Source: Candidatus Thioglobus autotrophicus (GTDB lineage: Bacteria > Pseudomonadota > Gammaproteobacteria > PS1 > Pseudothioglobaceae). Taken from it: a stretch of DNA of 64,000 nt. Positions 8,405-54,503 of this stretch are shown one piece after another. The stretch is taken from contig JAKUUR010000007.1 of NCBI GenBank assembly GCA_022448455.1, positions 1-64,000 on the forward strand, read 5' to 3'. Position 1 is the first letter of the stretch. Every line of letters begins with the position of its first letter. A model generated the notes under the pieces. That model did no database searches. It was given only the letters and a program-made list of their open reading frames with translations, and was not told where the DNA came from. The position numbers were made by a program, and so were the translations under genes.

Positions 8405-8412
8405 AGTTTTAA

Positions 8413-26588: not shown

Positions 26589-27158
26589 CTAAAGAACGTT
26601 CTTTACAGAAACTTCAATCGCATGAAGCATTGAGCGTGAAAACGAACGCATTGTTAAAAGTACGTATGAGTCATCGCCATCTCTGAAAATAATTGTACCA
26701 ATATGCTCCATAACTGTTCTTGAAACGCTACCCAATGTAAAAACACTGGGATCCAAATCAATTGGACAAATACGTTCTAACACGTCACGACTTCTTTCAC
26801 CACTGACACGGATCATCCCCCAAGTGTCTGACTGATCTGTGTAGTATGCCGGTGCGTCAAATCTCTCTGCAAGATTTACTTCAGCATCATCACCGTCGTA
26901 AGAAAAATAAGCCAATACTTGATTCTTTTGTAGGCGCCAAAGTGTCACTGAAGCATCCGAAGACTTGGTTGACTGGCCCATCGCTGGTATAGACAAACCA
27001 CAAGACTCTCCCATTGCAGATTCGATATCTACAGCTCTATCTCTTGGAAGAGCGACCATCACTAAAGACTGATCTATTACCTCAGCAACAGTTACCCCAT
27101 CAAACTCATGTTCTGCACCACCCAAAGGTGACTCTTTTATTAATTCATAATCAGACAC
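26589..27158 (-). CDS. soxG: SoxG-type gamma subunit of sarcosine oxidase or N-methylglutamate dehydrogenase
   Basis: I chose the GTG at 27158, which overlaps the SoxA-type gene by 8 nt and gives 189 residues starting MSDYELIKESPLGG, the usual SoxG opening; the longer ORF start adds residues inside the upstream gene. The protein has a GcvT-like fold (DTWGMIRVSGERSRDVLERI, ICPIDLDPSVFTLGSVSRT) and binds folate or completes the folate-binding part of the alpha2-beta2-type complex. It is the last gene of the BDAG operon. It could equally be MgdD of N-methylglutamate dehydrogenase; the families are homologous. Confidence 0.82.
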   Translation of the reverse strand: MSDYELIKESPLGGAEHEFDGVTVAEVIDQSLVMVALPRDRAVDIESAMGESCGLSIPAMGQSTKSSDASVTLWRLQKNQVLAYFSYDGDDAEVNLAERFDAPAYYTDQSDTWGMIRVSGERSRDVLERICPIDLDPSVFTLGSVSRTVMEHIGTIIFRDGDDSYVLLTMRSFSRSMLHAIEVSVKNVL

Positions 27159-30099: not shown

Positions 30100-30386
30100 T
30101 TTCCACGACCCTTTACTCTTGAGAAATCTTGAGCCAGCTCAACATTTGAAATCTCATGAGTTAAAGTGCTGCGAGTAACAACTAACCATGATTGGTCACC
30201 TTGTTCGTGATACCAAAGCTCTTGGATGTCACCGGCAATATTTTCTCTAATATATTGATACTGATGGAAGTCTTCGGCGGCAGCACTTTTTTCCCAATTT
30301 GTAGGTCTATCGATAAGATCTGTCGATCCTAGGTATACAAACTCCTCAGAATCACGAGGGCCTAATAACGGATGGTTTATTATCAT
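30096..30386 (-). CDS. soxD: SoxD-type delta subunit, zinc ligands replaced
   Basis: This 96-residue small subunit begins MIINHPLLGPRDSEEFVYLG. In characterised sarcosine oxidase the delta subunit binds zinc through CPxCG near the start and a His and Cys near residue 60. Here the first motif reads HPLLG, with both cysteines gone; near residue 60 the histidine is kept in LWYHEQGDQSW but the cysteine is not. The rest of the family pattern (LWYH, WLVVTR, THEI) is intact. The loss may mark a distinct branch, perhaps N-methylglutamate dehydrogenase (MgdB). It is preceded by GAGGATAAG and overlaps the next gene by 4 nt. Confidence 0.85.
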   Translation of the reverse strand: MIINHPLLGPRDSEEFVYLGSTDLIDRPTNWEKSAAAEDFHQYQYIRENIAGDIQELWYHEQGDQSWLVVTRSTLTHEISNVELAQDFSRVKGRGK

Positions 30387-30398
30387 TATCTTATCCTC

Positions 30399-31661
30399 TT
30401 AATGTAGATTTGGTTGAGGTCCAACACCCTTCTCATCTATCATTGCACCGCGTCTAAAACGATCTAGACGGTATGCAGTTGCAACTTCATGAGGTACGTC
30501 AGTTGCCAATAAGTGAGCATAACAATAACCACTTGCAGGTGTCGCTTTAAACCCTCCATAACACCAACCGCCATTAAAAAATAACTCTTTAACCTCAGTG
30601 CTATCGATAAACGGTGATCCGTCCATAGACATATCCACAACACCGCCCCACATTCGCAACATTCTTGCACGTCCTATCATTGGCATAATTGCCATACCGC
30701 CAGAACATACATCCTCAACAGCAGGTAAGTTGCCACGTTGGGCATAACTATTATAAGAATCAAGATCACCACCAAAGACGAGTCCGCCTTTGTCCGATTG
30801 AGAACAATAAAAGTGACCTGCACCAAAAGTAATAACATTATCCAAAACAGGTTTAAGACCTTCAGTTACAAAAGCCTGAAGAACATGACTCTCGATTGGA
30901 AGTTTAATGCCAGCCTTCGCCATAACTCGACCAGAAGAACCAGCCACACAGACACCTACACGATTCGCCTTAATATCACCCTTAGTAGTTTGAACGCCAA
31001 GGCATTTGCCGTTTTCGATATTAAAACCAGTGACTTCACAGTTCTGGATAATATCAACGCCAAGGTCACTAGCACCACGAGCATAACCCCAAGCGACAGC
31101 ATCATGGCGTACAGTTCCACCACGTGGCTGAGCTAGCGCAGCTTTAATGGGGAAACGAGCGTTATTCATATCAAGGAAAGGATATCTTTCTTTAACCTCT
31201 TTAGCTTCGAGATATTCACAGCCTGCACCAGCGAATAACATCGAATTACCACGACGAATAAAGGCATCACGCTGAGCATCTGAATGGATCAAGTTCATAA
31301 TGCCACGCTGTGAAACCATTACGTTGTAATTCAAATCTTGTTCAAGGTTTTCCCAGAGTTGTAATGACAATTCATAAAAAGGTTCGTTGCCTGGCAAAAG
31401 GTAGTTTGAGCGAATAATTGTCGTATTTCTACCAACGTTACCAGAACCAATCCAGCCACGCTCAAGCACAGCAACATTTGTAATACCGTGATTTTTCGCC
31501 AAATAGTAAGCAGTCGCAAGACCATGGCCACCACCACCAACAATAATGACATCATAGCCATCAGCCTTTGGTTCAGCATCACGCCAAGTTGGTTCCCAAC
31601 CTTTGTGCCCTGTTAAGGCCTCTTTTAATACCTTGAAGGCGGAATAACGGGTTTTACTCAC
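30399..31661 (-). CDS. soxB: SoxB-type beta subunit of sarcosine oxidase or N-methylglutamate dehydrogenase
   Basis: The 420-residue FAD-binding subunit has DVIIVGGGGHGLATAYYLAK (dinucleotide-binding glycines) and the SoxB landmarks ALTGHKGWEP near the start, GNVGRNTTIIRSNYL and FNGGWCYGGFKATPASG. It oxidises the secondary amine and carries the covalent flavin in characterised enzymes. Start is GTG at 31661, with the Shine-Dalgarno GGAG overlapping the stop region of the upstream FAD oxidoreductase gene (4-nt gap). It heads the B-D-A-G order, the classical arrangement. Homologous to MgdA. Confidence 0.9.
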   Translation of the reverse strand: MSKTRYSAFKVLKEALTGHKGWEPTWRDAEPKADGYDVIIVGGGGHGLATAYYLAKNHGITNVAVLERGWIGSGNVGRNTTIIRSNYLLPGNEPFYELSLQLWENLEQDLNYNVMVSQRGIMNLIHSDAQRDAFIRRGNSMLFAGAGCEYLEAKEVKERYPFLDMNNARFPIKAALAQPRGGTVRHDAVAWGYARGASDLGVDIIQNCEVTGFNIENGKCLGVQTTKGDIKANRVGVCVAGSSGRVMAKAGIKLPIESHVLQAFVTEGLKPVLDNVITFGAGHFYCSQSDKGGLVFGGDLDSYNSYAQRGNLPAVEDVCSGGMAIMPMIGRARMLRMWGGVVDMSMDGSPFIDSTEVKELFFNGGWCYGGFKATPASGYCYAHLLATDVPHEVATAYRLDRFRRGAMIDEKGVGPQPNLH

Positions 31662-31665
31662 AATT

Positions 31666-33030
31666 TTAACTCCAAGGATAAGGACTGTTAGATACTGGGT
31701 GCAGTTTACCTTCTTTGAAACGAGAGAACCTGAATGGCTCTAGAAGTTCTTGTTTTTCGCCCAGTAACTCTTCTGCCACTAAGCAACCCACACCTAACAT
31801 CTTATAACCATGATTACTGTCAGCAATGATTGTTACATTATCACTGTATGTATCAATCACTGGGAAGCTGTCAGCAGTCATACAACCAATACCACCTGAA
31901 GGCTCTTTATGGTAGCTATCCATCTTACCTTCGAATCTTTTATGGCAATGTGCCAAGGCTGATACCCACATTTCTGGAAAATCTTTGCTTGCTGTAAATT
32001 CTTTACTTTCAGGACCATATGGATCGATTGCGACTTCATCAACTGGTGTATCAACCTTATAAGGTGCAGCACCTCCCTGAATACCTCCAAAGACCCAATC
32101 AGGCTTGTAGTAAATACCCCATAGTTGGTCAGTAATTAGAGAACCGTCAATCGTTGAGTACAAAGGAGCGTCTGTGTCTACATGAAGTACAGGTGGAATT
32201 TTTCCATCGTTGGTAAGTAGAGTTTCTGGTGGTATCTCTAAAACCCCTTCTTCAAGCTGCCAAAAACGCCACATATCAACACCCTGGTGAACTTCACCCT
32301 GTAAATCTTTTACTTCGATTTGAGAGGGTAGTCCAAGCATTTTCCAAAAATCACGAACCCATGGTCCGGCCCCAATAACCAATTTATCACACTCAATAGT
32401 TCCTTGACTTGTTTCAACAGCAGTAACTCTTTGACCCTCGCCTGAACTTGCTTGAGTTTCAAGAAATCTAAAACCTGTTACTTCGGTGTTAAGGACAACA
32501 TTAACACCCAAATCAAATACTTTCTTGGATAGACCCTCCATGGCCTTTACATTATTAGCATAGCCACCCGGTTTTTCATGAAGAACTGAAGTAATTCCTT
32601 GCGCTTGCCAGTCATCAAAAAGATTTAGCATGTATTCACGTGACTCTTCTTCACCCTCAATGAAAACACTTTCGTAACCAATTGCCTTCTGTTCAGCATG
32701 AATTTGCTTAACATCTTCTCGCATTTTTTCGCAAGAAATTTGCATATAGCCATTTGCATGATAACTGAATGCCTCGGGATCGCTCTCCCAAATGCTAACT
32801 GAATGCGCCATTAATTTACGCATCGCTGGCTGAAAATAGTTGTTACGAACAACTCCACAAGCAATACCTGTAGCTCCCGCCGCAATTCTATCAGCCTTAT
32901 CAACGATCACGATACGCCCTTCGACACTTTCACCTGCTGCAGTTAAACGCTCAGCTAAACGCCAGGCTGTTGATAAACCATGAATACCAGCGCCAACAAT
33001 TACATATTCGGCCTGACTTGGTAACGACAT
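31666..33030 (-). CDS. FAD-dependent amine oxidoreductase (DAO family)
   Basis: This 454-residue protein has YVIVGAGIHGLSTAW at the N-terminus, a second shared segment KLVIGAGPWVRDFW, and the C-terminal DSNHGYKMLGVGCLVAEELL seen in glycine/sarcosine/dimethylglycine-type flavoenzymes. It lacks the GcvT domain of full-length dimethylglycine dehydrogenase. It is the first gene of the operon with soxBDAG, 4 nt before soxB, so it probably feeds that enzyme, for example by making sarcosine from dimethylglycine. That role is inferred from context. A 406-nt region to the divergent lysR gene precedes it and holds an inverted repeat. Confidence 0.78.
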   Translation of the reverse strand: MSLPSQAEYVIVGAGIHGLSTAWRLAERLTAAGESVEGRIVIVDKADRIAAGATGIACGVVRNNYFQPAMRKLMAHSVSIWESDPEAFSYHANGYMQISCEKMREDVKQIHAEQKAIGYESVFIEGEEESREYMLNLFDDWQAQGITSVLHEKPGGYANNVKAMEGLSKKVFDLGVNVVLNTEVTGFRFLETQASSGEGQRVTAVETSQGTIECDKLVIGAGPWVRDFWKMLGLPSQIEVKDLQGEVHQGVDMWRFWQLEEGVLEIPPETLLTNDGKIPPVLHVDTDAPLYSTIDGSLITDQLWGIYYKPDWVFGGIQGGAAPYKVDTPVDEVAIDPYGPESKEFTASKDFPEMWVSALAHCHKRFEGKMDSYHKEPSGGIGCMTADSFPVIDTYSDNVTIIADSNHGYKMLGVGCLVAEELLGEKQELLEPFRFSRFKEGKLHPVSNSPYPWS

Positions 33031-39857: not shown

Positions 39858-42269
39858 CTAATCCATCCCTAATAACTGTTTTCTTTTTATTGCCCAGGTC
39901 TGAATTATATGGTCAACTGTCAAGCCGATACATGCGACACAAAGCCCGAGCAATAGTCCATTACCTATTCCTTGTTTATCTGATAACGCTTTTATAATGT
40001 ACTGCCCTAAATCTTCGGTACCAATGAAAGCTCCAATAATAACCATAAATAGAGCAAAAATAACGGTCTGGTTTACTCCCAGCATAATATGAGGAAAAGC
40101 TAGAGGTAATTCAATTTTAACCCATCTCTGTATCCGACTTACACCCGACATTGAGCCTGCATCTTGCAAGTCTTCTGGCACGCTATTAAGCCCTTCCACT
40201 GTATAACGGGTAGCAGGAATGGTGGCATAGATAATAACAGAAATTAAAACGGTTGTATCAGTTACTCCAAAAAGTATCATAACCGGAATCAGATAAACAA
40301 ACGATGGAAAGGTCTGAAAGGTATCGCACACCAATAAAACAACCTTTGAAGCTGTTTTATTTTGAGCGCATAAAGAACCAACGGTTATACCAATAATTAC
40401 CGACACAATAACTCCAAAACTTGCCATATAGGCTGTAATTAGAGCTCTATCCCACCACTCTAACAGAGCAATAAATAGCAAACACCAGGCAACAATTAAG
40501 GCAGATCTAATGCCACCAACAATGTAGCCAATACCCATCACTAAAAAAAATGTTGCACTAACTGGCATAGACAAATATGACTCTCTCATTGGTAGAAGTA
40601 CATCTATAATTAACCATTTATTAAACCCCTGCAAACTAAAGAAAAAGTAGTCTAGAAACCAATCAATTCCACCCTGCAACATAGGTTCTAAAGTAATGCC
40701 TTTAGTGTGAGGTATTAAATATAAATAATTGATACCGCCTTTAAATAAGAAAGTGCCAATGTAAGACAAAGCAATACCTATCAATAAAATAACAACAAAA
40801 AGTAGTGACCATTTATGGCGCTCTATAAAAGGAAGGTCAGCAAAATAGTCAGTCTGCTTATTCGCCCAAGCCAAAGACAATTTATCTAAAACCACTGCAA
40901 TTATTACAATACACAGTCCTAATTCTAGAGCTTGTCCAACTTTCAGCTGATTAAGTGCAAGCAACAAATTAAAGCCCAAACCCTTGGCACCAATAAATGA
41001 GGCAATCACTGCCATTGCTAGGCACTGCATGATCACTTGGTTTACGCCAATTAAAATGTCACGCCTTGCAGTAGGAATCAAAACCTTAAACATCAATTGA
41101 TAATTGTGGCATCCGCTCATCATGCCCGCATCCACAACTTCTGGCGAAACTCTTTTAAGCCCCAAAAGGGTTAGACGTATCATCGGTGGCGTCGCAAAAA
41201 TTATTGTTGCAATGGCGCCAGCCTGATCACCAATTCCAAAAAACACCATGACAGGCACTAGATAAGCAAAATGAGGCATTGACTGAGCTATGTTAAGCAA
41301 CGGCGCTAATGCCACTTCTGCTGATTTACTTTTGTATGACCAAACCCCAAAAAACAATCCCAAAATAACAGAAACTGGTGCTGCAACCAATACAAATGAG
41401 AGCGTTTCCATAGAAGGCTGCCATTGCCCAAAAATGGAAATATACAAAGTTCCAAAACCTGCTAACATCGCAAGCCCTCTACCCTTAAGAGCATAACCCA
41501 GCATAGTTGCAGTTGCACAAACCACAGTCCAAGGTAAGGCAGGCCAATGAGCCCACTTATTTTCACTGAGCCAATCCCAACTCGTAAAAGTAACAATGGT
41601 TTTAACTCCACCCAAAAGAATTTCACGAATAAGTGCTATAGCAAAAAGTAAAGCAGCAGAAATACCTCTGGTGATTTGAAAAATTAAAGCCTTGTCTTCA
41701 AATTCCTCAATGTCTGGGTCATAAATTTCAATTGGAAACCACTCATACATCAAAAAGTTCGCATAGTCAGTCACTATTATTGGCAGGTCCCAAAAACTGC
41801 TCGTCTCTGGTTCACCAAAAAACCAAGTAAATAAAGTTGGCGCTACAAACAAACCACCGAAAATGGAGATAATGGCATAGAGGAATAACTTAGTCCAGTA
41901 TTTTTTAAACCAATCGATTAGAGAAATCTTTGATGACTGGATTTTTGCATAGTAATTATTAAATATCAATCCAGCCATAATTAACAAGGTTGTCAGTATA
42001 TATACTATGGAGGTACTGACTACTGGATTGAGAAAATTTAACTCGGGTATACGTACGAATTGCGGCGGCAACTGGCCCCTTAAAATCATACTGACTGACT
42101 CAGAAAATCCTACAACAGGAACTATTTGACCTTTTTCAACTGCTTTAGTAAAGCCATCTCTAACATCAATAATTTCACTATACTGGCCGGTCATCAAAAT
42201 GAGGACTACAAAACCAATTAGAACAAAACCTAATTGTACTAATTTAGGGTTCTTTTTTAAGTAGTCCAT
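39858..42269 (-). CDS. tmoW: fused double permease of a TMAO/betaine-type ABC transporter
   Basis: The 803-residue inner-membrane protein contains two homologous ProW-type permease halves. Each half has the EAA-loop pattern (DAGMMSGCHNYQLMFKVLIP and DAGSMSGVSRIQRWVKIELP) followed by GVNQ and a FIG segment. The halves are joined by a further hydrophobic region, giving well over ten helices. Such fused permeases occur in TmoXVW-type TMAO transporters and some betaine systems. The TMAO assignment comes from the neighbouring tdm gene; glycine betaine or choline remain alternatives. It follows tmoV by 12 nt. Confidence 0.78.
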   Translation of the reverse strand: MDYLKKNPKLVQLGFVLIGFVVLILMTGQYSEIIDVRDGFTKAVEKGQIVPVVGFSESVSMILRGQLPPQFVRIPELNFLNPVVSTSIVYILTTLLIMAGLIFNNYYAKIQSSKISLIDWFKKYWTKLFLYAIISIFGGLFVAPTLFTWFFGEPETSSFWDLPIIVTDYANFLMYEWFPIEIYDPDIEEFEDKALIFQITRGISAALLFAIALIREILLGGVKTIVTFTSWDWLSENKWAHWPALPWTVVCATATMLGYALKGRGLAMLAGFGTLYISIFGQWQPSMETLSFVLVAAPVSVILGLFFGVWSYKSKSAEVALAPLLNIAQSMPHFAYLVPVMVFFGIGDQAGAIATIIFATPPMIRLTLLGLKRVSPEVVDAGMMSGCHNYQLMFKVLIPTARRDILIGVNQVIMQCLAMAVIASFIGAKGLGFNLLLALNQLKVGQALELGLCIVIIAVVLDKLSLAWANKQTDYFADLPFIERHKWSLLFVVILLIGIALSYIGTFLFKGGINYLYLIPHTKGITLEPMLQGGIDWFLDYFFFSLQGFNKWLIIDVLLPMRESYLSMPVSATFFLVMGIGYIVGGIRSALIVAWCLLFIALLEWWDRALITAYMASFGVIVSVIIGITVGSLCAQNKTASKVVLLVCDTFQTFPSFVYLIPVMILFGVTDTTVLISVIIYATIPATRYTVEGLNSVPEDLQDAGSMSGVSRIQRWVKIELPLAFPHIMLGVNQTVIFALFMVIIGAFIGTEDLGQYIIKALSDKQGIGNGLLLGLCVACIGLTVDHIIQTWAIKRKQLLGMD

Positions 42270-42281
42270 ACTTTTCTTAAT

Positions 42282-43349
42282 CTAGGCGTTTGTTTCTTCT
42301 TTATTGTCGCCAAACAACACATGGATAACTTTGGAATTATGTAAGGCGCCAACAGTTTTATTGTTAGCATCTACAACAGCAACAGGCTTCTTTTCATTAA
42401 GTACCGCTTCAACAACTGTCTCAATAATGGCATCTTTCGAGACCTTTAGATCACTTAGTTCCTCGGAACTATCTAATGGGTCCATTACCGCTTCAATCTT
42501 AAGCACCTTCTCTCTCGGCACTTCTTGGGTAAATTTTCGAACATATTCGGTTGCTGGATTAAGAACAATATTGGCTGGCGTATCTAATTGCTCGATAATT
42601 CCATCTTTCATAATGGCAATACGATCAGCGAGTCTAAGTGCTTCATCAAAATCGTGTGTTACAAATAAAATCGTTTTTTTCAAAACACCCTGAAGTCTAA
42701 GGAATTCATCTTGCATCTCTTTACGTATTAGTGGATCTAAAGCCGAGAAAGGCTCATCCAAAAACCAAATGTCGGGCTCAACAGCCAATGATCTAGCAAT
42801 ACCTACACGTTGCTGCTGACCACCAGATAATTCTCTTGGAAAATAATTTTCACGCCCAGCAAGACCAACAAGCTCAACCATTTCCATGGCTCTTGTCATG
42901 CTATCCTTTGTGCTATTACCTTTAACTTGAAGAGGAAAGGCGATGTTCTCTACTACAGTTTTGTGCGGTAATAAGGCAAAACTTTGAAACACCATACCCA
43001 TTTTATTGCGTCTAAGTTCAATAAGTTCTTTGCCACTCAAGGCTAACAAATCTTCACCATCGATAAATATCTGACCCGCAGTTGTGTCAGTTAATCTTGA
43101 TATGCATCGAAGTAGTGTTGATTTACCTGAGCCAGACAAACCCATAATCACCAACATTTCACCATGATAAACTTCGAATGACGCATTATTAACACCTACT
43201 ACACAGCCTGCATCCTGAAACTCCTTGGCGTCAACTTTGCCATTAGAACTTTGAAGCATTTTTTTGGCATTCTCACCAAAAATTTTGTAAACAGATTCAC
43301 ACTTAACGACTGGCTGTTCTTTTTGGGATGGGGTATCTTGAGAAGACAT
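42282..43349 (-). CDS. tmoV: TMAO/betaine-type ABC transporter ATP-binding protein
   Basis: The 355-residue ProV-like ATPase has Walker A GLSGSGKST, signature ELSGGQQQRVGIARSLAV, Walker B WFLDEPFSALDPL and the H-loop VTHDF. The N-terminal extension (KIFGENAKKMLQ) is typical of ProV/OpuA ATPases. The C-terminal part (about 280-350, DSSEELSDLKVSKDAIIETV) resembles a degenerate CBS-type regulatory region. It lies between the attenuator hairpin after tmoX and tmoW, in the same operon. Confidence 0.85.
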   Translation of the reverse strand: MSSQDTPSQKEQPVVKCESVYKIFGENAKKMLQSSNGKVDAKEFQDAGCVVGVNNASFEVYHGEMLVIMGLSGSGKSTLLRCISRLTDTTAGQIFIDGEDLLALSGKELIELRRNKMGMVFQSFALLPHKTVVENIAFPLQVKGNSTKDSMTRAMEMVELVGLAGRENYFPRELSGGQQQRVGIARSLAVEPDIWFLDEPFSALDPLIRKEMQDEFLRLQGVLKKTILFVTHDFDEALRLADRIAIMKDGIIEQLDTPANIVLNPATEYVRKFTQEVPREKVLKIEAVMDPLDSSEELSDLKVSKDAIIETVVEAVLNEKKPVAVVDANNKTVGALHNSKVIHVLFGDNKEETNA

Positions 43350-43505
43350 AATTTATTTCCAAATGAGCTGGATAATATATTTTATATTATTACATACAAC
43401 AGACAAAATGATACCCCCAATCCTACCTAAGTTAGGTTACATTAATCTCAAAAAATTAAAGAGTTCGGTTGAACCTTCAGTTAAATAGTTTTGGAGGTAC
43501 TTATT

Positions 43506-43536
43506 AAAAACCCCCCTGAGTTCAGGGGGGTTTTTT
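43506..43536 (-). terminator. strong terminator or attenuator between tmoX and tmoV
   Basis: A stem of at least 8 perfect G/C-rich pairs (CCCCCCTG / CAGGGGGG, AGTT loop) is flanked by AAAAA and TTTTTT, so it can work in both directions. It is 25 nt after the tmoX stop. In such operons a hairpin here limits read-through and makes the binding protein the most abundant component. Confidence 0.9.
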
Positions 43537-43560
43537 ACACAATACTTACTAGTGTATTTG

Positions 43561-44511
43561 TTACATACCTACTCCAGTCATGGCTCTCCAAGCATCTTCA
43601 TTGTCAGCTAGCCATTGTGTAGCAGCATCCTTGTGACTCAATCCACTTAAGTCAACAAGTGCCGCCATAGAACCAATTTGGCCTGCATCGAACGACATTC
43701 TAGAGAACGCTGTGTAAGCCGCTGGATGAGTTTTAGGGAACTTATAGTTCGCCGCTTTCTTCAACCAACCTTTTGGCGATCCACACTTACTGTCACCACC
43801 ATCTTGTTTTCTGCAACCTAGATAATACTCAGGCCACTCAATGAAAACAAAACCGGCACCATCAGTGAAGTTAGGAGTCCAGTTGAAGGTCAAAGTAGCA
43901 CGTCCTTCTTTTTCAGCAGCTACATGGTCAGCCCAAAGAGCATCTGCACTACCTGCAAACTTGACAACCCAATTGTCGCCTAAAAGTGCTTCTACACGAT
44001 CTACATATTCAACACCATGCCAGCTTTGAGGTCCTTCTAAGATACGACCTTTTCCACCAGAATCTACTGTTGCAAACACTTCATAACAATCAATCAATGC
44101 TTTATAGTCTGGAAGTCCAGGGCACATATTTTGATCTACTACCCATTGTGGAACTCCAACCTCTTCCAGAGTCAATGCAGCATGCGTTCCAGCGTCAATT
44201 AGTCCGCCTTTCGCCATTGCAGCATAAAATGACTTACCGAAAGTAGACTGCCAAACCTCGTGAGAGATAGTTACGTCACCATTACGAATGGATTCATAAA
44301 CACCTTGAGTGTCAGCAGAAACATATTCAACGTTATTACCCATGCTTTCGAAAATACCACCGATAACATAGGCCATTACTACTTGGCTTGACCAGTTGTG
44401 TGTTGGAATGACAATTGGCTTAGTCGAGTCAGCCGCTAGGGCTTGACCAGAGACAGAAGCTAAAGTCATGGCTAAAGCAGCTGCAGCTACCTTACTTGTA
44501 AACTTTTTCAT
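43561..44511 (-). CDS. tmoX: TMAO/betaine-type periplasmic binding protein
   Basis: The 316-residue protein has a signal peptide (MKKFTSKVAAAALAMTLASV, cleaved near ALA-ADS). The mature part has the OpuAC/ProX fold with IPTHNWSSQVVMAYVIGGIF and many tryptophans (for example SHEVWQSTF, GSADALWADHV, FNWTPNF), suited to an aromatic cage for a quaternary or tertiary amine oxide. It is followed by an attenuator and tmoVW, and preceded by tdm on the same strand. That context favours TMAO; the family also includes betaine- and choline-binding proteins. Confidence 0.82.
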   Translation of the reverse strand: MKKFTSKVAAAALAMTLASVSGQALAADSTKPIVIPTHNWSSQVVMAYVIGGIFESMGNNVEYVSADTQGVYESIRNGDVTISHEVWQSTFGKSFYAAMAKGGLIDAGTHAALTLEEVGVPQWVVDQNMCPGLPDYKALIDCYEVFATVDSGGKGRILEGPQSWHGVEYVDRVEALLGDNWVVKFAGSADALWADHVAAEKEGRATLTFNWTPNFTDGAGFVFIEWPEYYLGCRKQDGGDSKCGSPKGWLKKAANYKFPKTHPAAYTAFSRMSFDAGQIGSMAALVDLSGLSHKDAATQWLADNEDAWRAMTGVGM

Positions 44512-44686: not shown

Positions 44687-46987
44687 TTACATTCTAACTC
44701 GAGCTTTCTCAGGATCATAAAACGGAAAGCGAACTACAGTCGCTGCTAGGCGCTTTTGATGTCCATCTAACTTTCCGACCTCAACCTCATTGCCCATTTC
44801 TGACTCTGAGACTGAAATCCTACACAAGGCAATGTTCTTTCTTAAAATCGGTGAACGTGTTGCACTTGTAATGATTCCTACCTGTTGCTTACCAATATAC
44901 ACGCCATCACCGTGCAGTGCAACTTCATTGTTGTGTAATTCTAACCCAACGAGGACTCTTTGGGGAGAATTCTTGCGAAGAATTAAAGATTCTTTTCCAG
45001 AAAAATCATCCTCTTTTGTCTTTAATGGAACGGTAAATGCGATACCAGCTTCGAATGGATCCGTCTGGTCACAGAATTCGTAACCTCCGAAAATTAAACC
45101 CGCTTCAATTCTCAACATATCAAGTGCATTAAGGCCTAGCGGACATATGTTAAATTCTTTACCGGCCTCTGCAATGGCATCCCAAACCGCTTCACAGTCA
45201 TCGGGATGAGCAAAAACCTCATAACCAAGTTCACCTGAGTATCCTGTACGAGAAACCATCACCGGTATACCTAACTCACCTCCGATACGTCCAATTGAGA
45301 ATCGGAACCATTTAAGATCTTCAACGTCAGGTTGGAGTCTTGGTGTCCAAATAATTTTGGCCAATGTCTCGCGACTCTTTGGACCCTGGACAGCAACATT
45401 ATGTAATTGGTTTGTGGAAGATTTAATCCACACATCTAAATTCTTTTCCTTAGCAATTTTACGGAGTAATTTGCCTCCATCCTCTGAACCCCCGACCCAG
45501 CGGAAATTATTTTCACCAAGACGGAACAAGGTGCCATCATCTACCATACAGCCATTGTCGAAGCACATAGCAGAATAGACAACTTGACCCACGGCCAGTT
45601 TACGAACATCTCTGGTTATTGCATACTGCATCAATATTTCTGCATCTTGACCATAGACTTCAAACTTTCTGAGTGGCGCTAGGTCAATCATAACAACCCC
45701 TTCACGGCATTGCCAGTATTCCTTTATGGCACCTAAATTAGTGTAATCAAGTGGCAACCAATAACCATTATAGTTATCAAAGTTTTTGGTTAATTTTGAT
45801 GTATTTTTATGAAAACCAGTTTCTTGAGTCATAGTGGGAATTGATTGTGGGTCAGGCCTAAAGGCCGTCGCAGTTGAAAAATTGTTATTATTGTCGTATA
45901 TCCTAACATGGATATCGGTTGGATTCCAATTGTTAGCAGAGGACGTGTCGTCTGGACATGCTGATGACACACACACCAAATCATCCAAAGCTTTAAATAA
46001 AACATAATCACCTGGCCTCGACCAAGAAACATCAGCAGTCAGTGCGTGACACTCTTCAATTGCTGTATTAAAAAATAGATTCACAGCCACCCAATTCTTG
46101 CGCGGAGCGATTCCATACTCAGCAAGAGATTTATTAAAGTTCTCACTACAATTGACATGCCCTGGAAAACCTCTATCTTCATAATATTTTGCATTGCAAG
46201 CCAAACCAAATGTGTCATGCCTACAAACCGTGTCTCGAACAATTTCAACTAGCGGAACTGAATTCTGATTATAAAACTTGTCATGGCATCCCGGTTCAGG
46301 ATAACTTTTAAGCATGTGTGATCTTGTCACAGTTGGGTCGAGGTTTAATTCTCTATTGTTTTTTAAATCTTCGACTAAAAAAGCTTGAAAATCTGAGCAT
46401 TGTTGCCCTTCAACATCAATAACCTGTATATATTCACCTGCCTTGACTTTATAAGCCACTGCCGTACTGTTATTTATCCTTATTTCCTTAGCGTTTTTTG
46501 CTAGAGGCTCTGGCAGACGATCTGATGGATTTGTTGGATTTGCGCGAGAAACATTTATCAAAATCTCTGTTGGTGCATCATGTTCGTCGACAATCATAGG
46601 GCCACCTTTAGCATCAAATATACATAAGGTGTCCTTGTCAATACAAAAAGATTGACGCGAGTCAGCGGGACTCGCAGCTGAAAAAAGGTCAGCGCCTTTC
46701 AAATTATTAGTTTCGATTTTGTTATGTCCTAAGATCGTCTTAAGCATATCAGAACATTCATCAACAGACACTTTTGAAGAATTGTTACTTGGCTGACTAC
46801 TCCAGTCAAGTGCATCCATCACTGAAGAGCCTTTTGAGTCAAACGCTAAAACGCTACATTGCTGATCACCTTCTACGTCAATAACTTCAACAGAGTCTCC
46901 GCTTTGCAAATCAATTGAAACCGCTTCACCACCTAGTATTTGGTAGGTCTCACAGTCATCAGAATATTTAATGTTAGATAGTCTCAT
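44687..46987 (-). CDS. tdm: trimethylamine N-oxide demethylase-like, DUF1989 + GcvT fusion
   Basis: I chose the ATG at 46987 (MRLSNIKYSDDCETYQ), 766 residues, because a promoter ends just upstream; the TTG at 47005 is too close to the -10 box. The central part (about 160-380) is a DUF1989 domain with VCRHDTFGLACNAKYYEDRG, and VCVSSACPDD (Cys255, Cys339 and Cys344 as candidate metal ligands). The C-terminal half (about 390-766) is a GcvT folate domain (SRTGYSGELGYEVF). This architecture is that of Tdm, which splits TMAO to dimethylamine and formaldehyde and hands the carbon to THF. An extra DUF1989-like half precedes (36-49 resembles 190-203). The adjoining tmo transporter supports the call. 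Confidence 0.8.
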   Translation of the reverse strand: MRLSNIKYSDDCETYQILGGEAVSIDLQSGDSVEVIDVEGDQQCSVLAFDSKGSSVMDALDWSSQPSNNSSKVSVDECSDMLKTILGHNKIETNNLKGADLFSAASPADSRQSFCIDKDTLCIFDAKGGPMIVDEHDAPTEILINVSRANPTNPSDRLPEPLAKNAKEIRINNSTAVAYKVKAGEYIQVIDVEGQQCSDFQAFLVEDLKNNRELNLDPTVTRSHMLKSYPEPGCHDKFYNQNSVPLVEIVRDTVCRHDTFGLACNAKYYEDRGFPGHVNCSENFNKSLAEYGIAPRKNWVAVNLFFNTAIEECHALTADVSWSRPGDYVLFKALDDLVCVSSACPDDTSSANNWNPTDIHVRIYDNNNNFSTATAFRPDPQSIPTMTQETGFHKNTSKLTKNFDNYNGYWLPLDYTNLGAIKEYWQCREGVVMIDLAPLRKFEVYGQDAEILMQYAITRDVRKLAVGQVVYSAMCFDNGCMVDDGTLFRLGENNFRWVGGSEDGGKLLRKIAKEKNLDVWIKSSTNQLHNVAVQGPKSRETLAKIIWTPRLQPDVEDLKWFRFSIGRIGGELGIPVMVSRTGYSGELGYEVFAHPDDCEAVWDAIAEAGKEFNICPLGLNALDMLRIEAGLIFGGYEFCDQTDPFEAGIAFTVPLKTKEDDFSGKESLILRKNSPQRVLVGLELHNNEVALHGDGVYIGKQQVGIITSATRSPILRKNIALCRISVSESEMGNEVEVGKLDGHQKRLAATVVRFPFYDPEKARVRM

Positions 46988-47013
46988 TTGTATATATATT
47001 GACAAATAGGCAA

Positions 47014-47233: not shown

Positions 47234-47620
47234 TTAAAACTTACGGTAAGCGTTGTTCAGATCAACCATTGGATGGTTTTCTGACATTTGAAACTTAATC
47301 AACAGTTCACGAGCAATCATGTCACGCTCTTGTTGGTTGTCTGGAAGTGAAATCGTATCAGGTATGGTTACCCAACCGTTAATGTTTCTATCAAAAACGG
47401 CTGCTTGGTCTCCCTCATAACCCATATGGACATCTTCTAACCAGTTAAGGTCCTTCCAACCCATCTTGTCAATGTATGATTGCAGAAATGGTGTGATAAG
47501 CTTAAGGTCAGGAACTAAGTTCACATCATATCTATAGCCAATGTGTTGTCCAATTTCTTGTTCACGATCCGTATCTAAACCATCAGCTCCAACTACAAAT
47601 GTTTCTTCATTAGTACTCAT
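47234..47620 (-). CDS. conserved-looking protein of unknown function in the mgs operon
   Basis: This 128-residue, cysteine-free, acidic protein is encoded 14 nt after mgsC on the same strand, with ATG start and TAAGGAG upstream. I do not recognise a family. Segments such as GQHIGYRYDVNLVPDLKLIT, KMGWKDLNWLEDVHMGY and INGWVTIPDTISLP look like a compact soluble domain; there is no signal peptide or membrane helix. Tight linkage to gmaS-mgsABC suggests a subunit, assembly factor or regulator of N-methylglutamate synthase or a separate step of methylamine use. Confidence 0.8.
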   Translation of the reverse strand: MSTNEETFVVGADGLDTDREQEIGQHIGYRYDVNLVPDLKLITPFLQSYIDKMGWKDLNWLEDVHMGYEGDQAAVFDRNINGWVTIPDTISLPDNQQERDMIARELLIKFQMSENHPMVDLNNAYRKF

Positions 47621-47634
47621 AATAACTCCTTATC

Positions 47635-48972
47635 TTAAAATCGTGTCATGTCAGGGCGACCAACAGTGTACTGTGATCCCGCAATAGGAACCTGTGCACA
47701 GGCTGAAGCCTCCATTGTCAAAGCAGCTAAGTCTTCTGGTTCTAATGAATGTATATTCGTCTTACCACAAGCACGAGCCATCATTTGACACTCAATTGTC
47801 AATGTGTGTAGGAAGTTATATACACGCTCCGAAGCTGCATCTGGGTCAAGACGCTTTCTAAGCTCAGGGTCTTGAGTCGCAACACCAACCGGACAACGAC
47901 CAGTATGACAGTGATAGCATTCACCAGCTTTAACACCCATTTCGCTTTCATAATCTGCTTCTGGAATGTCTCTATTACAGTTAAGTGCCATTAAAGCAGA
48001 ATGACCAATAGCAACCGCATCAGCACCTAGTGCTACCGCTTTAGCTACATCACCACCGTTACGGATACCGCCAGCATAAACCAAAGTAATTTCACCAGTC
48101 ATACCAACATCATCGAGTGCTCTACGAGCTTGACGAATTGCGGCAATTCCTGGGATACCTGTTTCTTCTGTTGCCAGGTGAGGTCCAGCACCAGTGCCTC
48201 CTTCCATACCGTCGATGTAGATACTGTCACAACCAGTTTTAGCAGCCATACGAACGTCATCGTATACACGTGCAGCACCTAGCTTCAATTGAATAGGAAT
48301 CTGCCCATCTGTCGCTTCACGAATTTCTCCAATTTTAAGCGCTAAGTCATCCGGACCTAACCAGTCAGGGTGTCTTGCAGGTGAGCGTTGGTCAATACCG
48401 GCCGGTAGTGACCGCATTTCTGCAACCTGGTCTGTTACTTTTTGGCCCATCAAGTGGCCACCTAGACCAACCTTACAGCCTTGGCCGATGAAGAATTCAA
48501 CAGCATCAGCTAAACGCAAGTGGTTAGGATTAAAACCGTAACGAGACTGGATACACTGGTAGAACCATTTGCTAGAATAGCGTCTTTCGTCTGGAATCAT
48601 ACCACCCTCTCCAGAACAAGTCGCTGTACCAGCCATGGTTGCACCACGGGCTAAAGCTGTTTTAGCTTCGTAACTTAGAGCACCAAAACTCATACCTGTA
48701 ATGTAGATAGGAATATCTAGCTCTAGTGGTCGCTTAGCGTTTGGTCCAATAATCGTTTTTGTTAAGCATTTTTCCCTGTAACCCTCAATAACGAAACGGG
48801 TAAGAGTACCTGGCATGAAAGTCAAATCATCCCAAGTTGGAATTTTTTTGAATAGAGAGAAGCCTCTCATTCTGTAACGACCCAAGTCAGATTTGATATG
48901 AATATCGTTAATCACTTCCTTAGGGAAGATAAAACTTTTACCTAAACGGTATTGATCGTCTGTATCACTCAT
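47635..48972 (-). CDS. mgsC: N-methylglutamate synthase, FMN/Fe-S glutamate-synthase-like subunit
   Basis: The 445-residue protein is the central FMN-binding domain of glutamate synthase as a separate subunit. SFGALSYEAKTALARGA, IQLKLGAARVYDDV, GMEGGTGAGPHLA and VYAGGIRNGGDVAKA form the barrel. Iron-sulfur cysteines 352, 355 and 360 are in GECYHCHTGRCPVG. It combines methylamine from gamma-glutamylmethylamide or free methylamine with glutamate to give N-methylglutamate. It is homologous to GlxD/GltB. Context with gmaS, mgsA and mgsB supports the Mgs role over an ordinary glutamate synthase. Confidence 0.86.
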   Translation of the reverse strand: MSDTDDQYRLGKSFIFPKEVINDIHIKSDLGRYRMRGFSLFKKIPTWDDLTFMPGTLTRFVIEGYREKCLTKTIIGPNAKRPLELDIPIYITGMSFGALSYEAKTALARGATMAGTATCSGEGGMIPDERRYSSKWFYQCIQSRYGFNPNHLRLADAVEFFIGQGCKVGLGGHLMGQKVTDQVAEMRSLPAGIDQRSPARHPDWLGPDDLALKIGEIREATDGQIPIQLKLGAARVYDDVRMAAKTGCDSIYIDGMEGGTGAGPHLATEETGIPGIAAIRQARRALDDVGMTGEITLVYAGGIRNGGDVAKAVALGADAVAIGHSALMALNCNRDIPEADYESEMGVKAGECYHCHTGRCPVGVATQDPELRKRLDPDAASERVYNFLHTLTIECQMMARACGKTNIHSLEPEDLAALTMEASACAQVPIAGSQYTVGRPDMTRF

Positions 48973-49008: not shown

Positions 49009-49851
49009 TTAAAGAACCAGTTTCTTCTCACTTGGCTCTAAATTATCGTAGTTCCATAGTTGCTTACCAGAGACATACTTTTGCATTTTTTCAACACCTT
49101 TAGGTGCCTTCATGTCATAAAGATCTAATTTAGATGTAATATATCGAACATCAAGTTCCGTCATTTCACCTGGTACACAGTCAACACCGAGGTCTTCGAC
49201 CTCACCGCCGACATAAATAGTACCGTCATACATTGAATCACCTAGGCTCATTCCAGCATCACCACAAATAATCATACGACCACGCTGCATCATGAAACCA
49301 GAGAAAGCACCTGTCTTTCCACCAACAATGATAGTGCCTCCTTTTTGGTCGATACCAGTACGTGCACCTACACTACCTTTACAGACAAGATCTCCACCAC
49401 GAATAGCAGCACCAAATGTAGAACCCGCATTTTTGTCAATTACAACCGTACCGGCCATCATGTTTTCCGCACATGACCAACCAACACGTCCTTTAATGTG
49501 CACGTTAGGTCCGTCAATTAGACCACAACCAAAGTAACCTAAACTGTCAGAAAAAGTCAAATTAAGTCGGTTTAAGATACCAACACCAACGCCATGTCTT
49601 GACATAGGATTATCAACCCTAATGTCTCCTATACCTTTTTCCATTAACGCTCTAATTTCACCATTGATTTCTCTTGGTGTCATTTCTAGAGCGTCAATTG
49701 TTCCGCTCTTGCTAGTGTCCACGTCAAATGAGTGAAAATATGTTAGATTTTCGCTTTCATCAACTGAGAAAAAACGTTGCTGAGTACGTCCCTTTAATTG
49801 CTCGTCGTGAAGCCCCATTTCATGAGACTTATCCTTTTTTAATGTTGCCAT
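49009..49851 (-). CDS. mgsB: N-methylglutamate synthase, GXGXG-domain subunit
   Basis: The 280-residue protein is the beta-helix (GltB C-terminal, GXGXG) module: repeated turns such as GTVVIDKNAGSTFGAAIRGG, GGTIIVGGKTGAFSGF and GRMIICGDAGMSLGDS. In glutamate synthase this domain is structural. Its start overlaps the end of mgsA by 13 nt (ATGGCAACATTAA), so translation is coupled. The split into A, B and C subunits matches the Mgs arrangement. Confidence 0.86.
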   Translation of the reverse strand: MATLKKDKSHEMGLHDEQLKGRTQQRFFSVDESENLTYFHSFDVDTSKSGTIDALEMTPREINGEIRALMEKGIGDIRVDNPMSRHGVGVGILNRLNLTFSDSLGYFGCGLIDGPNVHIKGRVGWSCAENMMAGTVVIDKNAGSTFGAAIRGGDLVCKGSVGARTGIDQKGGTIIVGGKTGAFSGFMMQRGRMIICGDAGMSLGDSMYDGTIYVGGEVEDLGVDCVPGEMTELDVRYITSKLDLYDMKAPKGVEKMQKYVSGKQLWNYDNLEPSEKKLVL

Positions 49852-50777
49852 ACTCTTACCTCTCCGTGATATGGGTCAAATGTGTCAATCTGATGGTCAA
49901 ACAATTTTCTGATCGCTACTTCTTCTGAAGCTAGTGCAATCATGTCATCGCCCTCATATACAACCATTGGTTTAGCAGCCATAACGTCCTTGGCCATACC
50001 AAGTTCATCCTTTGTTGCTACTAGATAAGTGAAAACGCCATCTAGATATTCAATTGAACCTTTCATCGCTGTCTCTAAATCATCACCTTGATTCATTCTA
50101 TCTGCTATATAAACTGCGATGAGTTCTGAATCACAGTCAGATGAGAAGCGATGCCCTTTACGCTCAAGTGCACGTCTGTTTGTAAAATAGTTAGTTAACT
50201 GACCATTGTGAACCACAGCAACGTCACTAAACGGGTACGCCCAATAAGGGTGAGCAGAACGAATATCTACGTCTGACTCTGTTGCCATACGTGTATGTCC
50301 AATACCGTGAGTACCATTAAAGCTATTAAGACCATATTGTTTAGAAACAACCGCCGCGTCACCAAGGTCTTTAACCAACTCCAGCGAGTTACCAATTGAC
50401 AAGATTTCAACGCTTTCAATATCTTCAATAAAGTCAGCCATTTTTTTTATGTCTCCCGAGAATTCGATCTCGTAACGGTGGGCGTACTCAGTTGGGCTTT
50501 CTTTCTTAACTACCTTAACGCCAAGTTCAGCAAGGCGTGAGTCAATCAATGCAAGACGACCCTCAATTGCAGCATGTATATCGTAACTGCCTTCTAGCTC
50601 AGCCGCTTCAGCTACCTTAAAACGCATAATTTGATTACCAGTATCTTCTCCATACATCGCATAACCAGTAGAATCTGGACCTCTATGCTTCAAAGCCTGC
50701 AACATTGATGTCATTTGCTCACCAATATTTGCGCCTTTTCCAGCTTGTTTATGAATAATTCCTACTATTCCGCACAT
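49839..50777 (-). CDS. mgsA: N-methylglutamate synthase, class II glutamine amidotransferase subunit
   Basis: The 312-residue protein begins MCGIVGIIHKQAG, with the N-terminal nucleophile Cys2 of class II amidotransferases, and has GIGHTRMATESDVDIRSAHP and VVHNGQLTNY. Residues about 90-140 (VKVVKKESPTEYAHRYEIEF) form an insert not usual in GltB. In the Mgs enzyme this part would release methylamine from gamma-glutamylmethylamide, which GmaS makes. It lies downstream of gmaS, after a hairpin in the 75-nt gap. Confidence 0.87.
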   Translation of the reverse strand: MCGIVGIIHKQAGKGANIGEQMTSMLQALKHRGPDSTGYAMYGEDTGNQIMRFKVAEAAELEGSYDIHAAIEGRLALIDSRLAELGVKVVKKESPTEYAHRYEIEFSGDIKKMADFIEDIESVEILSIGNSLELVKDLGDAAVVSKQYGLNSFNGTHGIGHTRMATESDVDIRSAHPYWAYPFSDVAVVHNGQLTNYFTNRRALERKGHRFSSDCDSELIAVYIADRMNQGDDLETAMKGSIEYLDGVFTYLVATKDELGMAKDVMAAKPMVVYEGDDMIALASEEVAIRKLFDHQIDTFDPYHGEVRVWQH

Positions 50778-50852: not shown

Positions 50853-52331
50853 CTATGGCAAGCAATCCAAGTAAGTCTCAATATCCCAATCTGTAACTGT
50901 ATGGTTAAATCTTTCCCACTCGTCATTCTTGTAGTGGTGAAAGACTTTATACATTTCATCCGGCATTGCAGATTTGATTACTTCATCGTTTGCAAGTTCA
51001 TTCAGCGCTTCACCTAATGTCATAGGCAGCTTCTTAACATCTTTACCTGCTTCCAAAGCTTCATAGATATTGCGCTCTTCAGGTTCACCCGCATCGATGT
51101 TATTATCAATACCGTCCCCCATTGCCTTTAACAAGGCTGAGCCCATTAAGTAAGGATTCACCATTGAATCGACTGAACGGTATTCGAAACGACCTGGGGC
51201 AGAAACACGAAGCGCACAAGTACGGTTTTGGTAACCCCAGTCAGCAAAAATTGGCGCCCAGAAACCTGTATCCCAAAGGCGGCGATATGAGTTTACTGTA
51301 GAAGAGCCAATTGAAGTTAGGGCTGGTAAGTGTTTGATAACACCACCGATTGAGTTAAGTCCGATAGGACCAGGCATTCTCTCGTCAATTTTAGGATCTG
51401 GCATGAATGTGTTTTCACCACCCTCTTTGTAAGTGTAGCATCCTGGCATACCTGGAAGTTCTCCATCACCCGAAGCAATCTCTGGATGGAATACGTCCTT
51501 ACCACCTCTCCATAATGACATGTTATGGTGACAACCTGAAGCCGAAACACCCATAAATGGCTTACTCATAAAGCAGGCAATCAAACCAAACTCACGTGCA
51601 ACTTGCGCGCAGATTTGACGATAAGTCGTTAAACGGTCTGAATTACGTAAGACATCATCAAATTGAGTATTAAGTTCAAGTTGTCCTGGAGCGTCTTCGT
51701 GGTCACCCTGAATAATGTCAAGACCCATTTGTTCTGAATATTCAATTACCCTCATGAATACAGGACGTAACTCTTCAAATTGGTCAATGTGGTAACAGTT
51801 TGGCTTGGTAACACCACCGTTCGGTGCACCATCTTCACCTCTCTTAAGCCACATCATTTCTGGTTCAGTGCCGCAACGCATGTCTAAGCCATATTGATCT
51901 TGGAACTCTTTATGTTGTCTATAGAGGTTTCCACGACAATCAGAAGTTAAAGCTGCACCCGGGTTTTCACGCTCCTCACGGTTTCTATAAAGTCTACAGA
52001 AAACGCGAGCGACGCGCTTATCCCATGGAAGTTGACAAAAGGTTTCAGGATCTGCTATACCGACAAGCTCAGAAGCTTCAGGTCCATAACCGATATAATG
52101 ACCATGACGGTCAATAAATAAATTAGCTGTTGAACCGTATACTAATTGAAATCCTTTTTCAGCCAAACGTTCCCAGTGACGAGCAGGAATACCTTTACCG
52201 ACGACACGACCAGTAACTGAAACAAATTGATAATATACATATCTAATACCCAAAGCATCGATCATAGCTTTAACTTCCTGTACTAGCTTATCGCGTCCAG
52301 GTGCGTTAACGTGTTGTTCTAAATCTGTCAT
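50853..52331 (-). CDS. gmaS: gamma-glutamylmethylamide synthetase (glutamine-synthetase family)
   Basis: The 492-residue protein is a glutamine-synthetase homologue (GlnA type III/GmaS). The segments RCGTEPEMMW, GDHEDAPGQLELN, ASGCHHNMSLW and RRLWDTGFWAP carry the metal and glutamate sites. GmaS joins methylamine to glutamate using ATP. It starts the operon gmaS-mgsA-mgsB-mgsC-128 aa, whose order supports GmaS over ordinary glutamine synthetase. A good promoter and a long structured leader lie upstream, and an XRE-cupin gene further up, so control is likely. Confidence 0.83.
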   Translation of the reverse strand: MTDLEQHVNAPGRDKLVQEVKAMIDALGIRYVYYQFVSVTGRVVGKGIPARHWERLAEKGFQLVYGSTANLFIDRHGHYIGYGPEASELVGIADPETFCQLPWDKRVARVFCRLYRNREERENPGAALTSDCRGNLYRQHKEFQDQYGLDMRCGTEPEMMWLKRGEDGAPNGGVTKPNCYHIDQFEELRPVFMRVIEYSEQMGLDIIQGDHEDAPGQLELNTQFDDVLRNSDRLTTYRQICAQVAREFGLIACFMSKPFMGVSASGCHHNMSLWRGGKDVFHPEIASGDGELPGMPGCYTYKEGGENTFMPDPKIDERMPGPIGLNSIGGVIKHLPALTSIGSSTVNSYRRLWDTGFWAPIFADWGYQNRTCALRVSAPGRFEYRSVDSMVNPYLMGSALLKAMGDGIDNNIDAGEPEERNIYEALEAGKDVKKLPMTLGEALNELANDEVIKSAMPDEMYKVFHHYKNDEWERFNHTVTDWDIETYLDCLP

Positions 52332-52730: not shown

Positions 52731-53381
52731 TTAATCGGGGTTATTTGAGCAAATAACAGTTAAAAATTGACATTCGTCAGAGATGATTTTTTTTGGACCA
52801 TGCGGCTTATCCGAATCAAAATATATTGAATCTCCTTTCTTAAAGTGATACACCTGGGTACCGTAGTAATAATCCATTTGGCCTTTAAGCATATAAATAA
52901 ATTCAACACCTTTATGTTGAAATTCAGGGAAGTTATAATCTCTCGAAGTAACAGTAATTAGACAAGGCTCAACTTTAAGAGAACCTCCAACAGTATGCCC
53001 TAGGAGCTGATAGTGGCGACCTTCATCTGAACCTGCCCTTTCAATCGTTAGGCCTTCACCTGACTTAATAAAGGTTGGTTCAACGTCTTTATCATGCTGC
53101 TTAAATAGCCAAGTGATCGATATATTGAGTGCATGGCATATCGACTGAATAGTTTTTAGTGAGGCACTAATCTGACCATTCTCTATCTTTGAAAGCATGC
53201 TTGCGGATAATAAAGATTGTTTTGACAACTGTTGAAGAGTAACGCCAGCATTTTTTCGAGCAATCCTAACCTGCTTGCCTATTGAAGCCTCTAATTGTTT
53301 ATCACTACCAAAACTGGGTAGCGCTTTATTAATAATCGATACACCCTTTTTAGGGGATATCTCTTCTGGATTTGAAGCCAT
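52731..53381 (-). CDS. XRE-family regulator with C-terminal cupin domain
   Basis: The 216-residue protein has an N-terminal tail, a helix-turn-helix (about 31-87: VRIARKNAGVTLQQLSKQS, MLSKIENGQISASLKTIQSI) and a C-terminal cupin (about 140-210: PEFQHKGVEFIYMLKGQMDY, FKKGDSIYFDSDKPHGPK). Such regulators sense small metabolites through the cupin. It is upstream of gmaS on the same strand; the perfect palindrome in the gmaS leader is a candidate target. It lies 115 nt downstream of the homocysteine methyltransferase gene. Confidence 0.88.
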   Translation of the reverse strand: MASNPEEISPKKGVSIINKALPSFGSDKQLEASIGKQVRIARKNAGVTLQQLSKQSLLSASMLSKIENGQISASLKTIQSICHALNISITWLFKQHDKDVEPTFIKSGEGLTIERAGSDEGRHYQLLGHTVGGSLKVEPCLITVTSRDYNFPEFQHKGVEFIYMLKGQMDYYYGTQVYHFKKGDSIYFDSDKPHGPKKIISDECQFLTVICSNNPD

Positions 53382-53495: not shown

Positions 53496-54503
53496 TTAAC
53501 GTCGACTTCTTCGTTTTTTGACTGGAGAAGAATGATCACCTATAAAAATAGCTCTAGACCCCTTTGACATTTTTCCTATCTTTTCTTCAATATCTGGCAT
53601 GCTTGGTGATCCGTTCATTTGATGTTCATCCATTGCTTGTCTCATGGCTTTGACATGTCCAAAAGTTGTTCCACAGCAACCACCAATAATCTTCGCTCCA
53701 GAATTCATTGCAAGATGAACATAATCAGCCATCAATTTCTCGGTTCCTGTATAAACGATACTACCCTCTTTAAATTCAGGGATACCACAATTCGCCTTAG
53801 CAATTACGGTTGTATCTGGATCTACATTACGACTTATATCAGTAATTGTTGCCAGTAGGTCAGATGCACCTATTCCACAGTTAGCTCCAAAGCCTAAGAG
53901 GCCAAGATCTTTTGCCTTGACAGCAAGATTTGCTGGGGTGACACCCATCATCGTTTTTCCTGCAGTATCAAAACTCATCGTAGCACAAACTGGAAGTCCA
54001 AACTCTTTTACTGCCTCAAGAGCGGCTTCTAGCTCTTCCATGGCATACATGGTCTCCAACCACAAAACATCAACACCACCCTCAACGAGTCCTTCGGCTT
54101 GCGCTTTAAAGGCTTCTGTCGCTTCTTTAGAGCTCATTACTCCGTGTGGTTCAATGATCTCACCTGTTGGCCCCATTGACCCAGCCACTACAACAAGACG
54201 GTCTGCTTTATCGGCAACCTCTCTTGCAATAATAGCTGCAGCCTTATTCAATTCGAAAACTCGATTCTCAAGCTGGTGAAGCTTGAGTCTAAAAGCTGTA
54301 CCACCAAAGCTATTTGTTAAGAAAAGGTCAGAACCAGCGTCAACAAAGCCTTGATATAAGGCACTAATTCGTTCAGCATGATTCACATTCCATGGCTCCG
54401 GCGGGTCGCCTGTTTCAAGACCCATAGCGAACAAGTTAGTGCCCGTAGCACCATCAGCCAGTATATGTTTTTTTTCACTTATAATTTTTAAAAAGTTATT
54501 CAC
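53496..54503 (-). CDS. bhmT: betaine-homocysteine methyltransferase-like protein
   Basis: The 335-residue zinc methyltransferase has LADGATGTNLFAMGLE, FLTNSFGGTAFRL and the zinc cysteines in GFGANCGIG (Cys209) and IGGCCGTTFGHV (Cys276, Cys277). It moves a methyl group to homocysteine, giving methionine. In marine bacteria this size class is commonly the betaine-using enzyme (glycine betaine to dimethylglycine). The methylamine context fits; S-methylmethionine use is an alternative. The C-terminus ends in a basic tail (PVKKRRSRR). Confidence 0.82.
   Translation of the reverse strand: MNNFLKIISEKKHILADGATGTNLFAMGLETGDPPEPWNVNHAERISALYQGFVDAGSDLFLTNSFGGTAFRLKLHQLENRVFELNKAAAIIAREVADKADRLVVVAGSMGPTGEIIEPHGVMSSKEATEAFKAQAEGLVEGGVDVLWLETMYAMEELEAALEAVKEFGLPVCATMSFDTAGKTMMGVTPANLAVKAKDLGLLGFGANCGIGASDLLATITDISRNVDPDTTVIAKANCGIPEFKEGSIVYTGTEKLMADYVHLAMNSGAKIIGGCCGTTFGHVKAMRQAMDEHQMNGSPSMPDIEEKIGKMSKGSRAIFIGDHSSPVKKRRSRR

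Follow-up and report, generated by a model that had tools for sequence, protein, structure and literature searches.

Which role falls to a small gene of unnamed family at the end of an operon for a GmaS-type ligase and the three-gene synthase MgsABC? The window, that is, the whole 64,000-nucleotide stretch of Candidatus Thioglobus autotrophicus DNA analysed here, carries such a gene directly after mgsC, and we refer to it as X128. An earlier note, made from the sequence alone, had raised the idea of a fourth component of N-methylglutamate synthase (NMGS). X128 is obligately tied to a distinct GmaS/MgsABC clade, the genomic associations of which point to dimethylamine rather than methylamine as the substrate. 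We assign a probability of about one half to the reading that X128 is an accessory subunit of this second type of synthase, which would move dimethylamine to N,N-dimethylglutamate and replace DmmABC downstream of the TMAO demethylase Tdm.

The X128 gene and its surroundings

The features that bear on the argument all lie on the minus strand of the window:

47234..47620, minus strand: X128, a short conserved product outside any named family and candidate accessory subunit of type-2 MgsABC (ORF, conserved family, strict co-occurrence with type-2 MgsC)
47626..47631, minus strand: Shine-Dalgarno AAGGAG of X128, read from the sequence
47635..48972, minus strand: MgsC2, FMN-binding glutamate-synthase domain subunit, in the monophyletic type-2 clade (Pfam PF01645, E 2e-91)
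49009..49851, minus strand: MgsB2, GXGXG-domain subunit (Pfam PF01493)
49839..50777, minus strand: MgsA2, class-II glutamine amidotransferase subunit (Pfam PF13522/PF13537)
50853..52331, minus strand: GmaS2, putative amine-glutamate ligase of the type-2 clade with the GmaS amine-site residues kept (Pfam PF00120; residue mapping to RhGmaS; tree)
44687..47005, minus strand: Tdm, TMAO demethylase, dimethylamine source (NCBIfam NF053776, 1116 bits against a cut-off of 1100)
31666..33030, minus strand: FAD454, DAO-family flavin dehydrogenase, proposed N,N-dimethylglutamate demethylase (Pfam PF01266; linked to type-2 loci only)
26589..31661, minus strand: soxB-soxD-soxA-soxG genes, putatively mgdABCD for an N-methylglutamate dehydrogenase (of the NCBIfam models, TIGR01373 and TIGR01372 exceed their cut-offs and TIGR01374 and TIGR01375 do not)
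39858..44511, minus strand: ABC transporter adjoining tdm and kept with the type-2 operon in relatives, which we take, from homology to TmoXWV, to be a TmoX/W/V-like TMAO transporter
52731..53381, minus strand: XRE-cupin regulator upstream of gmaS2 (Pfam HTH_3 and Cupin_2)

X128 is a real, conserved and unnamed gene. The stop codon of mgsC ends at 47635, and the gap of 14 nt that follows (47621-47634) contains AAGGAG 5 nt ahead of the ATG, just as the earlier note had described the gene start. Its description of the 128-aa product as acidic and cysteine-free is likewise borne out (computed pI 4.4, no cysteine, GRAVY -0.55), and so is its view that the protein belongs to no known family: searches of Pfam, NCBIfam, PHROGs and PDB sequences gave no family match and no clear match to an unrelated family, the lone weak library match (E 0.005) being to an unrelated Toxoplasma protein. 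A scan of genome contigs yielded 304 confirmed relatives, and an alignment of 50 diverse members has 49 invariant columns; X128 is therefore more than a chance ORF. The best 80 of the 304 relatives are spread over Gamma-, Alpha- and Betaproteobacteria, with others in MAGs that carry the labels SAR324, Latescibacterota and Acidobacteria. Against congeners dN/dS is 0.03-0.06, with dS near saturation, and X128 is under strong purifying selection. We found no homologues on plasmids or phages and no natural MgsC-X128 fusion among 119 adjacent pairs.

In the window tdm lies directly downstream of X128, an arrangement general among Thioglobus relatives. No terminator-like site was seen between the two genes; ahead of tdm there is a promoter-like 11/12 match (47043-47014) of a kind no commoner than chance. 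It is plausible that X128 is the last gene of the operon. The intergenic regions of the window contain no known RNA families apart from one tRNA. Beyond gmaS2, a homocysteine S-methyltransferase-like gene (53496-54503) is kept beside the XRE-cupin regulator and the type-2 operon in Thioglobus relatives. Of the 25 classical loci read, 12 have a regulator similar to the XRE-cupin one close by.

The products of the three mgs genes match, in Pfam, the class-II amidotransferase, GXGXG and FMN glutamate-synthase domains expected of MgsABC. Glutamate synthase (GltBD) has a counterpart of each of the three, but joined in a single large polypeptide that uses glutamine. We know of no X128 counterpart in GltBD.

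Two types of GmaS-MgsABC system

We define type 2 as the GmaS-MgsABC clade with X128 and type 1 as the classical systems without it (M. extorquens and Roseobacter type). The two form separate clades with SH-aLRT support of 100 for both MgsC and GmaS, and the MgsC of the window falls outside the classical clade, in a separate clade with 100% support. MgsC identity to the window's protein is at least 78% within type 2 and 50-54% in the next group, with nothing between. Wherever the contig extends far enough, type-2 genes stand in the order gmaS-mgsA-mgsB-mgsC-X128.

The earlier note had suggested looking for consistent linkage to mgsC, and this is what we see: in the best 80 of 304 loci X128 stands beside mgsC wherever the contig reaches. 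In the order to which the window belongs, X128 occurs in 29 of 29 genomes with type-2 MgsC and in none of 54 others; the corresponding figures are 16/16 versus 0/1 in another order and, in a third sample, 2/2 versus 0/52 genomes with only type-1-like MgsC. Type-1 loci lack X128 throughout (Paracoccus, Methylobacterium and Ruegeria plasmids plus 20 genomic loci), those on the plasmids reading mgsA-B-C-glnT. The proposed fourth NMGS component thus survives in part: X128 is tied to type-2 MgsABC and likely has a subunit role, but since type-1 genomes and loci do without it, a fourth subunit common to all NMGS it is not, and we dropped that candidate. The mgsABC genes of M. extorquens alone yield N-methylglutamate in P. 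putida (PMC6237917).

The classical MgsABC and GmaS of Methyloversatilis, Methylobacterium and Roseobacter share with type 2 the three synthase domain types and a GmaS-type ligase with conserved catalytic residues. They differ in an MgsC about 52% identical to that of type 2, in a mostly mgsABC-gmaS order in the loci read, in shorter GmaS and MgsB, in the absence of X128, and in being linked to dmm instead of FAD454. Many genomes hold both types, side by side in some (L161/L162, L213), so the two are unlikely to be redundant. One locus, L178 (G659, 3659-9045), has a type-1-like glnT ahead of type-2 mgsABC-X128; it is the sole such case seen and may reflect either a join made in assembly or a genuine hybrid.

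In GmaS2 the methylamine-site residues of RhGmaS, whose roles have been described (PMC7948447), are kept (K30, Y147, Q175, D177, E179, E186 and N188), as are W300 and R312; Asp177, Glu186, Arg312, Trp300 and Lys30 are conserved in 79 of 79 type-2 sequences. Beside the amine site the same 79 sequences carry three fixed changes, Y174I, N176G and A48V. The retained site together with the fixed adjacent changes suggests that GmaS2 is a ligase for alkylamines in which the surroundings of the site have been remodelled. Classical GmaS uses dimethylamine poorly, with a Km of 16 mM (PMC7948447). Against TIGR03105, the NCBIfam model that names classical glnT, GmaS2 scores 306 bits, well under the cut-off of 470, versus 652 for the classical Ruegeria protein, and annotation and gmaS-based surveys may therefore merge the two types or miss one. 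X128 offers a one-gene marker separating two enzyme clades that are at present annotated alike.

A candidate route for dimethylamine

Tdm yields dimethylamine from TMAO, and DmmABC is the known next enzyme. DmmABC is a monooxygenase of the haem/ferredoxin-reductase type (PF11927, PF22290) that needs O2 and gives methylamine; its proteins and chemistry are unrelated to type 2, the place of which it occupies downstream of Tdm in other Tdm genomes. Our marker for Dmm was PF11927, the family of its haem-dependent oxidative demethylase subunit, an assignment that the Ruegeria protein confirmed. It was not found in the genome of the window and is present in one of 83 genomes of its order. Tdm is encoded by 37 of 387 alphaproteobacterial genomes, of which 27 have X128 only, eight a strong PF11927 match only, none both and two neither (Fisher p 1e-6; by family 12 versus 7 without overlap, p 1e-4), and it occurs in 27 of the 38 alphaproteobacterial genomes with X128 (co-occurrence p 1e-24), although these p-values overstate independence, since families share descent and operons can move together. 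Two X128 genomes gave weak PF11927 matches (E ~1e-14 to 1e-16). The other 11 of the 38 have no Tdm match, one of them (G779) carrying a fragment at a contig end; Tdm is thus not obligatory. The two Tdm genomes that lack both X128 and a strong Dmm marker are those of L175 (G680), in which the tdm contig ends at the tdm gene, and L176 (G739).

Locus context tells the same two types apart. The gene for FAD454, a DAO flavoprotein of 454 aa, immediately precedes gmaS2 across many lineages (loci L027-L081) and keeps to the X128-type operon; its place in Thioglobus is beside soxBDAG (26589-33030). Among loci readable to 7 kb on either side, FAD454 accompanies 31 of 49 type-2 loci and none of 25 type-1 loci, while Dmm genes are found near none of the former and DmmA/B near seven of the latter. 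Taken with the Tdm pattern, this context suggests that type 2 stands in the place of Dmm with a dehydrogenase of its own. FAD454 belongs to the same DAO family as the sarcosine oxidase beta subunit and dimethylglycine dehydrogenase (PDB sequence matches at E 3e-13 to SoxB and 2e-5 to DMGDH); it scores above the cut-off of no family model, lies far under that of the soxB family (69 versus 529 bits) and lacks a folate domain. In the sox set soxA and soxB exceed their family cut-offs and soxD and soxG fall below, and a role as MgdABCD is putative.

From these associations the following route can be proposed. GmaS2 would join dimethylamine to glutamate, giving gamma-glutamyl-dimethylamide, from which MgsA2 would free the amine within the complex. 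MgsB2 and MgsC2-X128 would then condense the amine with 2-oxoglutarate to an iminium and reduce it to N,N-dimethylglutamate. FAD454 would take off one methyl group and soxBDAG the second, returning glutamate. We infer every substrate of this pathway, as well as the physical role of X128, from gene content and residue conservation as they stand in the sequence; a dimethylamine function of type 2 is the best-supported but unproven interpretation. The open-access literature yielded no biochemistry of any type-2 protein and no mention of dimethylglutamate in such a role. The fuller claim, which we hold slightly short of even odds, makes X128 an essential subunit of an N,N-dimethylglutamate synthase specific for dimethylamine, working in a pathway that needs no oxygenase, has glutamate as the carrier and is used by SAR11, SUP05/Thioglobus, SAR324 and other marine bacteria.

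The strongest competitor, to which we give perhaps half the credence of the favoured reading, is that type 2 is simply another, divergent N-methylglutamate synthase that acts on methylamine, with X128 as an additional subunit needed by that version. The full set of methylamine-site residues in GmaS2 fits it, as do the N-methylglutamate dehydrogenase-like soxBDAG genes that adjoin type 2 in many loci and the genome of the window, in which no classical copy was found. However, many genomes hold both types, sometimes in one cluster, and this explanation accounts neither for the exclusion of Dmm nor for the restriction of FAD454 to type 2.

If X128 is a subunit of a dimethylamine synthase, how would it act? 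An alpha-beta-beta-beta-alpha-alpha arrangement is predicted with high confidence for the C-terminal two thirds. Residues ~24-34 are almost invariant yet predicted with low confidence, as might be expected of a stretch that takes up its fold on binding a partner. X128 would bind MgsC2/MgsABC2, probably through the highly conserved, unstructured N-terminal segment (~residues 18-43), and the activity of the MgsABC2 complex would depend on it. When the folds of two AlphaFold models (mean pLDDT 78) were compared with known ones, Foldseek found nothing below E 0.7, and VIA Z never exceeded 2.5. Resemblances to release factors, AcrIIC2 and dsRNA-binding domains were weak and domain-sized and were set aside; a role as electron carrier was dropped, as the protein has neither cysteine nor a cofactor motif.

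A small, acidic protein with no recognised catalytic motif and no fold match, encoded last in its unit, could instead have a regulatory role, perhaps inhibiting GmaS2 or sensing feedback on it, or controlling the operon. We consider this improbable. X128 is as conserved as the enzymes (72% identity to the Latescibacterota copy, versus 71% for GmaS and 64-65% for MgsA/B), which is unusual for regulators, and classical systems manage without it. In L178, moreover, X128 still follows mgsC2 despite the type-1-like ligase, weak evidence that its partner may be the synthase and not the ligase. Least probable is that type 2 acts on another secondary or primary amine with an indirect link to Tdm: the 11 X128 genomes without detected Tdm and the ammonium transporter genes that are frequent neighbours would agree with this, but the strong co-occurrence of Tdm with X128 and the mutual exclusion of X128 and Dmm among Tdm genomes speak against it.

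Marine dimethylamine and the SAR11 comparison

SAR11 and abundant marine Gamma- and Deltaproteobacteria lack dmmABC, a gap that has been interpreted as a metabolic bottleneck, with dimethylamine escaping to the atmosphere (PMC5520151). Should the type-2 operon with X128 handle dimethylamine, this bottleneck may not exist, and surveys of the genes for marine dimethylamine use should include X128 and FAD454 in their counts. X128 probably belongs to a dimethylamine pathway of abundant ocean bacteria that has hitherto gone unrecognised, and this pathway would supply the missing step in the use of TMAO nitrogen without DmmABC by SAR11, SUP05/Thioglobus, SAR324 and other marine bacteria. Candidatus Pelagibacter ubique HTCC1062 lacks dmm and yet can grow with TMAO as its only source of nitrogen, for which an unknown Dmm isoenzyme has been postulated (PMC8918994); if type 2 handles dimethylamine, such an isoenzyme would be unnecessary.

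A 1.2-Mb alphaproteobacterial genome (G643, locus L172) carries, in order, tmoX, tdm, a 116-aa ORF, FAD454, gmaS2, mgsA2, mgsB2, mgsC2, X128 and amt. In HTCC1062, SAR11_1302 is annotated as a glycine-betaine-type binding protein, 1303 as an aminomethyltransferase and 1304 as a monomeric sarcosine oxidase (PMC3160333), 1305 as glnT (PMC5069961), 1309 as a hypothetical protein and 1310 as amt (PMC2704228). Going by these published gene names alone, the order SAR11_1302-1310 matches that of L172 position by position, bar the 116-aa ORF, and 1309 would be X128. The classical glxBCD-glnT genes of HTCC1062 (1313-1316) form a separate operon, proposed to serve methylamine (PMC3160333). The additional ORF of L172, a locus of a streamlined alphaproteobacterium, lies at 14210-14560, in the interval between tdm and FAD454.
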